Source: an uncultured bacterium (lineage in GTDB: Bacteria; DRYD01). Taken from it: a stretch of DNA of 64,000 bases. A program made the translations under genes and the position numbers. The stretch is taken from contig CAKZQG010000044.1 in the NCBI GenBank assembly GCA_937139605.1, forward strand, positions 44,215 through 108,214, in the 5' to 3' direction. Within the stretch, counting starts at the first letter, position 1. Each line of letters opens with the position of its first letter. The notes under the pieces are model-generated. The model saw only the letters and a list, made by a program, of their open reading frames with translations, searched no databases and was not told where the DNA came from. Of this stretch, positions 23,061 to 26,235 are shown one piece after another.

Positions 23061-24044
23061 TCAAGAAACTTTTATTTTATCAACAATATTAAATTGTTCG
23101 TATATTCTTTTTAACATTTGAAAACTAACTTTTAAAGCGTTAATTCCATCATCAACAGTAACAAGCGGTTTTCTATTTTCATTAATAGAATTAATAAACT
23201 CTGTTAGTTCTAATCTCAAAGGTTCATATCTAATAACGTTAGGGATTTCCACTTTCATTTCAAAGCTTTCATAATTAGCATCTTTATAAATATTAAGTGG
23301 CACATAATGAACTTCTACATACTGAGAAATATAATCTGCATAAATAGAGTTATCTGATTGTATTATTCTAATTTTTCTTTCTTTAACGGGATGGCATCTA
23401 CTACTAGTTAGAACAACAATAGTATCATTTTCAAAAGTGATACTAGCGTTAGCAATATCTTCATTTAAAGTAAAATCATATACACTATTTCCTAACGCAT
23501 TTATTTCCCTAATTTCTTTACCTTTAAGTAGATAATTTACAACGATATCTATATCATGAATCATAAGATCTAAAACTACACCGGTAGAGGGTTTTCTATT
23601 AGGTAGAGGTCCCATTCTTCTTATTTCCATAAATATAGGTTTTTTTATATAATTAATAATTTGTTTTAAAACGGGGTTAAATCTTTCAGTATGTCCTACC
23701 ATGAAAATTATCCCTTTTTTATAAGCTAATTCTTTTAATTCTTCTGCATGTTCTAAGTTATCAGTGATAGGTTTTTCAATTAATATGTGTTTCCCATATT
23801 CTAATACAGTTTTAGCTACCTCATAGTGTTTATCAGTAGGTACTGCAATAGAAACAGCATCTACTGATTTTATTAATTCTTTAACTTCTTTATAATAATT
23901 AGTACCTAAGTTTTCAGCTACCATTTTAGCTTTAGATTCGTCTAAATCATAAACCCCAACTAACTTACAGATCTTATTTTGTGAATAAATCCTAGCATGA
24001 TGAAATCCCATATATCCAACGCCTATTACCCCAATTTTGAGCAT
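23061..24044 (-). CDS. Gfo/Idh/MocA oxidoreductase (GnnA-like)
   Basis: The 327-residue NAD(P)-dependent sugar oxidoreductase has an N-terminal Rossmann motif IGVIGVGYMGFHHARIY, the family signature ILIEKPITDN near residue 92 and a C-terminal beta-sheet domain with MIHDIDIVVNYL, in which the catalytic-type His lies. In several Gram-negatives a member of this family lies beside lpxA. In Acidithiobacillus and Leptospira, GnnA oxidises the 3-OH of UDP-GlcNAc so that GnnB can aminate it before LpxA. Here it lies between fabZ and lpxA, supporting a lipid A role, but gnnB is not seen. AAGGGG Shine-Dalgarno. Confidence 0.85.
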   Translation of the reverse strand: MLKIGVIGVGYMGFHHARIYSQNKICKLVGVYDLDESKAKMVAENLGTNYYKEVKELIKSVDAVSIAVPTDKHYEVAKTVLEYGKHILIEKPITDNLEHAEELKELAYKKGIIFMVGHTERFNPVLKQIINYIKKPIFMEIRRMGPLPNRKPSTGVVLDLMIHDIDIVVNYLLKGKEIREINALGNSVYDFTLNEDIANASITFENDTIVVLTSSRCHPVKERKIRIIQSDNSIYADYISQYVEVHYVPLNIYKDANYESFEMKVEIPNVIRYEPLRLELTEFINSINENRKPLVTVDDGINALKVSFQMLKRIYEQFNIVDKIKVS

Positions 24045-24583: not shown

Positions 24584-25459
24584 TTAAATCATTTGAGGAA
24601 TCCATATAGTTTTTATTTCTACAAAATTCATTAAAAATTCTAATTTAAATAAATCATCGTTATAAAAATCGGTTTCATTTATTTCTTTAATAAATGTTCT
24701 TTTAACATTAAAAGATGCACCTTCCTGAATAATTTCTTTTAATTTACTATTTTTTTCATTTGATTCATTATAAACAAAACAAATATGATTAACATCCATA
24801 TGATTGGCTAAAACAGGAACCAATTCTTGATAAAACCCAGATAGTATATTAATAACTCCAGGTAATACATCAGATGCTATTATAATTTCAGAAAAAGATA
24901 ATATACTTAAAGGGTTATTTTCAACTAAAACTACTACAACATTCCCAAGCATAATAATTGGGATAGTTAAAGAAATAAAAGCTAAAAGAGAGGGTTTATC
25001 TGGCAAAACTACTCCTACTATTCCTACAGGTTCTGGAGTAGAATAATTAACAAATTTATTATTAACATTATTAATAGTTCCTATTAAATGGTGAAACTTG
25101 TCAGCAAAACCAGCAAAATATATTAACCTATCTATACTAAGTTCCACTTCTTTTTTAGGGTCATTAGCTCCAGTCAAGCTTAGTTCATAGATAAATTCTT
25201 GTTTTCTATTTTCAAGTTCTTCAGCAATTCTATAGATTATTTGTCCTTTGTTATAACCAGTTTTTGATGCCCAGGTATTAAAAATAGCTCTTGAATATCT
25301 TACAGCGTCTCTTAAATCTTTTTTAGAGCTTCTAACTACATTAGCTAAAAATTTCCCATCCTTATCTAAAACCTTATAAGTCCTATTACTTTCACTTCTA
25401 ATTAAGTTATTGTTTACTAATATTTTATATGTTTTTTTTACATTTAATCTTTGTTGCAT
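24584..25459 (-). CDS. Truncated aldehyde-dehydrogenase-like protein without the catalytic Cys domain
   Basis: The 291-residue protein corresponds to the NAD-binding N-terminal half of an ALDH: RTYKVLDKDGKFLANVVRSSKKDLRDAV, the helical segment FNTWASKTGYNKGQIIYRIAEELE, and GIVGVVLPDKPSLLAFISLTIPIIMLGN, which replaces the usual PWNFP loop. The frame ends after about 290 residues and the catalytic Cys/Glu domain is missing. No remnant of it is seen downstream, where fabZ begins 70 bp later. Similar half-length ALDH-like proteins exist in other bacteria, so it may be a real pseudoenzyme or a partner subunit rather than debris. It is the first gene after the structured leader. AGG Shine-Dalgarno only. 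Confidence 0.75.
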   Translation of the reverse strand: MQQRLNVKKTYKILVNNNLIRSESNRTYKVLDKDGKFLANVVRSSKKDLRDAVRYSRAIFNTWASKTGYNKGQIIYRIAEELENRKQEFIYELSLTGANDPKKEVELSIDRLIYFAGFADKFHHLIGTINNVNNKFVNYSTPEPVGIVGVVLPDKPSLLAFISLTIPIIMLGNVVVVLVENNPLSILSFSEIIIASDVLPGVINILSGFYQELVPVLANHMDVNHICFVYNESNEKNSKLKEIIQEGASFNVKRTFIKEINETDFYNDDLFKLEFLMNFVEIKTIWIPQMI

Positions 25460-25480
25460 TAATACCTATTATTAACAAAA

Positions 25481-25498
25481 GTGTATAAGAATATACAC
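25481..25498 (-). terminator. Terminator-like hairpin or operator in the leader of the lipid operon
   Basis: GTGTATA-AGAA-TATACAC is a perfect 7-bp inverted repeat. On the minus strand it is followed directly by TTTTGTT and lies 22 bp before the ATG at 25459. That is the shape of a weak intrinsic terminator, so it could act as an attenuator for the structured RNA upstream. As DNA it is also a good dyad operator of the TetR/FadR kind. Which one applies cannot be decided from sequence. Confidence 0.5.
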
Positions 25499-25502
25499 CT
25501 TT

Positions 25503-25575
25503 GGCAGACCTATTTGTATTCCGCCATGTTATATCAGGTTAGCCCTATAGTCTGCAGGCGGTATTAGGCTAACCT
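25503..25575 (-). ncRNA. G+C-rich leader block with three interlaced complementary pairs
   Basis: In this A+T-rich sequence a compact G+C-rich block holds three segments followed, in the same order, by their exact complements. On the plus strand these are GCAGAC (25504-25509), CCGCC (25521-25525), AGGTTAGCC (25536-25544), then GTCTGC (25550-25555), GGCGG (25557-25561) and GGCTAACCT (25567-25575). All three helices cross one another, so they cannot form as simple nested stems. They must form pseudoknots or alternative structures. On the minus strand the block lies just ahead of the terminator-like hairpin (25481-25498) and the ALDH-like/fabZ/lpxA genes, as expected for a riboswitch-like attenuator. 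No known family is recognised; an independent small RNA is the alternative. Confidence 0.45.
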
Positions 25576-25623
25576 TGTACCAAAACAATAGCCTATCTAC
25601 ATACAAAAACTACCTTAACAACT

Positions 25624-25673
25624 CTTTAAAAAGTATCCTATCTTTAAAAAGTATCCTATCTTTAAAAAGTATC
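25624..25673. repeat. Three 18-bp tandem repeats upstream of the lipid operon
   Basis: CTTTAAAAAGTATC(CTAT) starts at 25624, 25642 and 25660: exactly 18-bp spacing, essentially identical copies. They lie about 50 bp upstream of the structured block on the minus strand. They could be binding sites for a regulator of that operon or a slippage product. Confidence 0.8.
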
Positions 25674-26235
25674 TTAAATATTCTTTTTCATTTAAATAGT
25701 TGCTTTCATTTGGGGGTTTTTAGTTTGCTATCTATGTTTTGTATCTTTAGCTTATTAACTTAATACCAATGTTGATGTTGTTTTTAACATTGTTTTTATT
25801 TCTTTTTTCTTTTTTAATATTCTTCGTGTTTTTTTCGCAGAAACTCAAGATATTAAGTGATAGTTTTTTTAACTGTTTTAATCTCCTAATAATTTATAAT
25901 ATAAACTAAAAAACACCTATACTATTTTTATTATTAAACTAAAAAATAAATATCCTTTTTTAGTAAAAAATAAATCTTTTTTATAATTATATTTAGATTG
26001 GGATTTTATTATTACTCAAACTGATTTACCATTACTAGATTAATATAGGGATTTTTGAGTTAGCAAACAAAGTATCAGCTTCATAATGCAAATGCCTGAT
26101 ATTTTTCAAAATGTTTAAACTCTTATAGTAAAAGCATTTTTTGCCATTTTTTTATTTTATATTGCAAAGAATAAAAATAAAAAATAGTTTTATAAAAAGG
26201 GAAAAATGGATAAAAGTAGAATATAAATAATAAAG

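Follow-up and report, generated by a model that had tools for sequence, protein, structure and literature searches.

What is the block of interlaced complementary segments that lies directly ahead of an aldehyde dehydrogenase (ALDH)-like gene in contig CAKZQG010000044.1 of an uncultured bacterium? A first-pass annotation of the 64,000-nucleotide stretch analysed here (the window) had taken it for an unrecognised cis-regulatory RNA controlling lipid A or acyl metabolism, with a recombination site or small RNA as the alternative. The alternative proved nearer to what was found. With good confidence in the two parts jointly, the element is read as the right end of an internally deleted IS607-family transposon, whose minus strand would encode the guide-RNA scaffold of TnpB, and the RNA core as having been exapted as a gene leader across a bacterial family.

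On the plus strand GCAGAC (25504-25509), CCGCC (25521-25525) and AGGTTAGCC (25536-25544) are followed by GTCTGC (25550-25555), GGCGG (25557-25561) and GGCTAACCT (25567-25575), and the minus strand carries a hairpin, GTGTATA-N4-TATACAC (25481-25487/25492-25498); all lie where they were first reported. Read on the minus strand, the first three segments are the 3′ strands of helices a, b and c and the last three their 5′ strands. With c′, b′ and a′ denoting the 5′ strands, the RNA runs c′ AGGTTAGCC, b′ CCGCC, a′ GCAGAC, c GGCTAACCT, b GGCGG, the conserved loop AATACAAATAG, a GTCTGC, the hairpin, TTTTGTTAATAATAGG, TATTA and ATG. The block is a predicted three-helix crossing pseudoknot (25501-25578, minus strand), followed by the 7-bp hairpin.

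Pairing was assessed for helices a and b by covariation and for helix c by swapping partners. In 50 related sequences, helices a and b were paired in 100% of cells, compared with 29-52% in slid controls; 107 cells were double-compensated and none of 500 shuffles reached the observed counts. In helix a, six of the seven pairs have changed on both sides (GCAGAC/GTCTGC, GCTGGGG/CCCCAGC, GTTGGGG/CCCCAAC and GCCAGTG/CACTGGC all occur), helix b is almost invariant, and the 36 versions of helix c had a mean score of 8.5, compared with 4.8 with swapped partners (maximum 5.5 in 200). Covariation is strong in helices a and c, and the block is far beyond chance. Since the three helices are kept together in relatives, a pseudoknot is better supported than the switch between folds that had been offered beside it. 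Neither the window copy nor any of 20 related leaders matched an Rfam family, and with the RAGATH-18 model neither the window copy nor L050, a tnpB locus described below, gave a match up to E = 5. The proposal of an unrecognised structured RNA in a 5′ leader position was sound, the RNA being real, covarying and without an Rfam match.

The 1.88-Mb genome (G000) has 16 long copies, of which the block is one. In all 16 the hairpin end lies directly upstream of a co-oriented start codon, and the genes behind them have no common theme. Recurrence as a mobile repeat had been named beforehand as evidence against a regulatory leader, and the window copy belongs to just such a repeat. Traces of the TnpB C-terminus were found in all 16 (tblastn, TnpB residues ~504-538), weakly in some; in the window an AT-decayed remnant (25579-25780, minus strand) still resembles the 3′ end of tnpB by tblastn, and by blastn that of L050. 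Searches of this 88.5% complete genome found no complete TnpB (protein search, PF07282, P0001), only the C-terminal remnants, and no resolvase or IS607 transposase. The 16 long copies are therefore considered to be passive now.

When GTDB contigs were scanned for the pattern, the same RNA turned up in metagenome-assembled genomes (MAGs) labelled Sulfurihydrogenibium, Hydrogenobaculum and Acidobacteria; 18 of the 22 matches, in GC-rich or coding DNA, look like chance and were set aside. In the Sulfurihydrogenibium-labelled MAG the RNA forms the 3′ end of a 541-amino-acid open reading frame that matches the TnpB models TIGR01765 and TIGR01766. This TnpB is held by 54 of 136 genomes of that phylum, Aquificota, and its putative RuvC residues D224, E287 and D356 are invariant in eight aligned sequences. 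In L084 and L085 it is preceded by an IS607 serine transposase (NF033518, 223.7 bits against a cut-off of 110) with PF00239 and MerR domains; an earlier assignment to IS200/IS605 was dropped once this transposase was found. In L050, L075 and others the RNA lies at the 3′ end of tnpB, in the sense orientation, and extends to the right end of the element, a position from which it would be expected to be transcribed and to act as a guide RNA. Pseudoknotted guide RNAs of IS607 TnpBs are already known (PMC11061315, PMC10711439), and on the strength of the alignment of relatives, the covariation and a model match described below, the window pseudoknot is read as such an (omega/reRNA) scaffold. In L050 (3920-5545) the pseudoknot lies within the TnpB frame, and the scaffold there also encodes the TnpB C-terminus. 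An IMG/VR scan with TnpB gave nothing. Plasmid matches were mainly from Thermus, at <60% identity; related TnpB proteins, at ~40% identity, are common on Thermus thermophilus plasmids.

The hairpin, kept in 15 of the 16 long copies and at the right ends of the Aquificota elements, recurs regularly at IS607 right ends in relatives belonging to other phyla. It had been described as terminator-like, a role that it may or may not have: the stem is A+T-rich and followed only by TTTTG, and an intrinsic terminator is recognised by a G+C-rich hairpin and a U tract.

The window element is a non-autonomous copy of ~418 bp (25465-25882, minus strand), the ends of which match those of autonomous elements and are degenerate. 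Its left end, ATTAAAACAGTTAAAAAAACTAT (25860-25882), is preceded by AGGAG (25883-25887), the original Shine-Dalgarno sequence, and its right end finishes in ATAGG (25465-25469; CCAGG in relatives) 5 nt ahead of the start codon of the ALDH-like gene (24584-25459, minus strand; PF00171). The left ends of relatives are likewise preceded by GGAGG, in the pattern GGAGG-N4-6-AACAGTTG, and their right ends finish in ACCAGG. In 44 of 49 right ends a long frame begins no more than 40 nt away, mostly 3-9 nt past CCAGG; among random positions, 8% have an ATG start. The ortholog of the window gene in G001, a genome of the same genus, lies beside the same tRNA and has an empty site, AAGAGG-TGATTTTTT-ATG, which marks the window copy as an insertion, specific to its lineage, into a Shine-Dalgarno site. 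As judged from these junctions, insertion of the elements is between the Shine-Dalgarno sequence and the start codon. An IS607 element would be expected to have GG at its two ends and at its target and to leave no target-site duplication.

A mechanism for this can be suggested. IS607 strand exchange takes place at GG (PMC6188088), and the IS607 TnpBs studied have AGGAG or GAGGG as their transposon-associated motif (TAM; PMC11061315), the former being identical to the left flank in the window. If the transposase exchanges strands at GG and its preferred target is the Shine-Dalgarno GGAGG, the element would land between this site and the start codon. The AGG at its right end would then become the new ribosome site, and to judge from the spacing, ATAGG is the probable replacement Shine-Dalgarno of the ALDH-like gene. 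The sequence just past the right end, including the first bases of that gene, would be the guide of the RNA. This would give a possible reason for a TAM that is a Shine-Dalgarno sequence: insertion there spares the coding sequence, and with a new ribosome site provided by the right end the cost to the host would be low. A link of this kind between TAM and Shine-Dalgarno insertion was not found in the literature searched.

The element thus resembles known IS607 transposons with TnpB and reRNA, such as ISFba1 and ISXfa1 (PMC11061315, PMC10711439, PMC6188088), in that the autonomous relatives have a serine transposase and TnpB, a pseudoknotted RNA finishes at the right end, GG is probably present at the ends and the AG-rich left flank equals the TAM AGGAG. 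It differs in that the relatives have a TnpB of ~520-540 amino acids (the average is 390), in that Rfam does not identify the RNA as RAGATH-18 and in that both genes are missing from every copy in this genome.

The long copies are not the only form of the RNA. A covariance model (R1) built from the IS607-related RNAs gave many matches in six genomes of the family (G000-G005; MAGs, 71-90% complete), many of them short, and a second model (R2) was re-trained on these short family matches and used at E <= 0.1. As only 150 candidates per genome were scored the counts are minima: at least 39, 21, 27, 27, 31 and 15 matches in the six genomes. Among 284 other genomes there were five single matches. 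The window pseudoknot, at 48.9 bits, is the sole strong R2 match in the window; weak matches at 1905-2009, within a tRNA, and at 23140-23185, within a gene, were judged to be chance. In other families, the single copies L238 and L240/L241 lie upstream of an argG-like gene and of an AGGAG-preceded start codon, respectively.

The core of these short relatives is ~55 nt long, often without helix c. It is an H-type pseudoknot of the form CCGCY, 0-4 nt, S2, 0-40 nt, RGCGG, AAUAUAAAUA and S2′, in which S2 is helix a. The preQ1-I and SAM-II riboswitches are H-type pseudoknots in 5′ leaders, with two crossing stems and an A-rich third loop. The leaders described here have all of these features; they differ in that their genes have no common pathway and that Rfam has no match for them. 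Long frames begin within 80 nt on the same strand in 126 of the 128 matches inspected; an ATG lies within 45 nt in 123 (control 12.6%), and the median distance between the last stem and ATG is 18 nt. In an alignment of 100 distinct leaders (A3), 97% of cells were paired and nine of twelve pairs, including all seven of S2, were double-changed (0/500). This alignment was fitted to S2, helix b being left unfitted; in a test with no fitting, S2 scored 6.48, compared with 4.25 with swapped partners (maximum 4.63 in 300). A scan of the 100 loci gave 101 matches, all but one at the known site, and the extra one was another leader at the same locus.

The genes downstream, named from their translations, fall into 60 clusters with no pathway theme. 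For 42 of the 60 the leader is present in more than one genome: rpsD has it in all six, cutA and jag in five, and fba, acpP and a STAS gene in four. Others include rpsB, rplE, rplL, rplQ, rpmE, rpmF, rpoZ, frr, tig, recA, ssb, mdh and asnS. The rpsD stem differs between genomes with compensation, being GCAAGAG/CTCTTGC in G000 and GCTGGAT/ATCCAGC in G004. Examples of stand-alone leaders are L324 (rpsD), L319 (rpsB), L321 (rplQ), L222 (recA) and L219 (acpP).

These results bear directly on the regulatory role proposed in the first-pass annotation, a metabolite riboswitch or attenuator of a lipid A or acyl operon. Leader position and a hairpin with TTTTG would suit it, but the same RNA stands ahead of ribosomal protein genes, recA, asnS, mdh and many other unrelated genes, the insertion is absent from the G001 ortholog and there is no Rfam match. 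In G000 the genes behind the long copies (16) and the short relatives (at least 21) are unrelated, and it is on this that the reading fails; almost no weight can be given to it. The covariance check suggested at the time gave compensatory changes in helices a and c and a nearly invariant helix b; the RNA is not specific to lpxA or acyl metabolism.

Short and long forms also differ in their conservation: in G000, 19 of the 21 short leaders have an orthologous RNA elsewhere, compared with 2 of the 16 long copies (p = 3.6e-6). This matters for the possibility that the block, like all of its relatives, is an inert transposon end in decay and that the leaders persist only because little time has elapsed. 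The window copy and most long copies are indeed lineage-specific insertions, and neither transposase nor TnpB was found in the genome. The short leaders, however, are at orthologous loci across two genera, where other parts of the element have been lost and both stems kept with compensatory changes. As an account of the whole family inertness is unlikely; for the window copy alone it is likely to be true, though not for the leaders, and this young, lineage-specific copy may have no function at all.

A link between long and short forms is provided by isocitrate dehydrogenase (icd). A DNA search of G001 found one weak copy only, which precedes icd as does one G000 copy, and has a different but still complementary helix c. 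The icd site is thus occupied by the long form in G000 and by a bare 75-nt pseudoknot in G001, a pair that fits erosion of an insertion. The G001 copy (L060, 866-940, minus strand) lies directly upstream of icd, with helix c swapped for another complementary pair and the right-end hairpin lost. Some G004 leaders (L181, L183 and L185-L187) retain, between the pseudoknot and the start codon, a short hairpin that resembles a right-end hairpin after erosion.

Homology between leaders and transposon RNAs is reciprocal, as R2, trained on leaders alone, detects the Aquificota IS607 RNAs with up to 60.8 bits. The core sequence that they share, CCGCCUGCUGGGG...GGCGGAAUAYAAAUA, would also be expected if the pseudoknot were an ancestral leader of the family, acquired secondarily by IS607 as its guide-RNA scaffold. 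This seems very improbable, as the transposon form occurs in Aquificota and in MAGs with other labels while leaders in numbers were found in one family only, and the icd pair is what erosion would give. In Aquificota no stand-alone leaders were found besides transposon ends, within the fetched flanks in which they were looked for.

The RNAs might instead be active guides in trans, with which TnpB or a nuclease-dead TnpB-like protein cuts or represses targets. The scaffold is intact, and exaptation of TnpB as a repressor is known (TldR; PMC13418256). No TnpB-like protein was found in the six family genomes by protein search, however, only C-terminal remnants, and the sole weak zinc-ribbon match in this genome overlaps ribosomal protein L32 by position. 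A role in trans is therefore held to be very improbable.

The explanation that we favour is that repeated insertions of IS607 elements of this subfamily took place between Shine-Dalgarno sequence and start codon in an ancestor of the family, that the genes of the elements were then lost, and that the RNA core was retained for a useful cis role on the next cistron, probably in translation or mRNA stability. Most likely, the core has been exapted as a cis-acting 5′-leader element that would act on the translation or stability of the downstream cistron. Origin and retention of the leaders are supported by sequence, as are the repeat family, the covariation, the link to IS607, the insertion site and the conservation of the leaders. 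That the whole family uses the scaffold as a standard leader ahead of dozens of housekeeping genes, where selection has preserved it in the absence of the nuclease and transposons aimed at Shine-Dalgarno sequences first brought it in, is somewhat more probable than its opposite.

Several points weigh against this explanation. The case for a leader function is built from sequence, and the order of leader and transposon RNA is deduced from their distribution. IS607 sequences served as the seed of the leader model, and A3 was fitted to helix a. With MAGs of 71-90% completeness a TnpB or transposase could be missed. Shine-Dalgarno sequences are as frequent before leader genes (43%) as before window open reading frames (43%), so replacement of this signal is not the explanation for the leaders, and the idea that they substitute for a ribosome site was rejected as unsupported.

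Partial parallels are known. In P. abyssi the repetitive noncoding RNAs sRkB and sRkC are related to the 3′ end of an orphan OrfB (TnpB), and sRkB is an mRNA leader (PMC3124441). There too a repeated RNA derived from the 3′ end of tnpB is found, once in a 5′ leader, and a cis role was proposed; a family of dozens of conserved leaders is what distinguishes the present case. TldRs, nuclease-dead TnpB repressors with guide RNAs, are likewise an exapted TnpB system; they retain the protein, whereas here no protein was found and the RNA alone is kept, in cis. No case of such a scaffold conserved without TnpB in dozens of orthologous leaders came up in the literature searched, an absence that is no proof of novelty. 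As far as this search goes, reuse of a transposon guide-RNA scaffold as a gene-leader element, in the absence of its protein, is undescribed. The more than 100 covarying leaders form a natural set for asking what effect a pseudoknot has when it lies just ahead of a start codon.

As for the neighbourhood in the window, Pfam bore out the gene order that had been read downstream of the block, giving ALDH-like, FabA/Z-like, GFO/IDH/MocA (read as gnnA-like), LpxA and Rossmann reductase (read as acyl-ACP-reductase-like) genes. Within the element itself, tandem TTTAAAAAGTATCCTATC-like units occur at 25625-25680.
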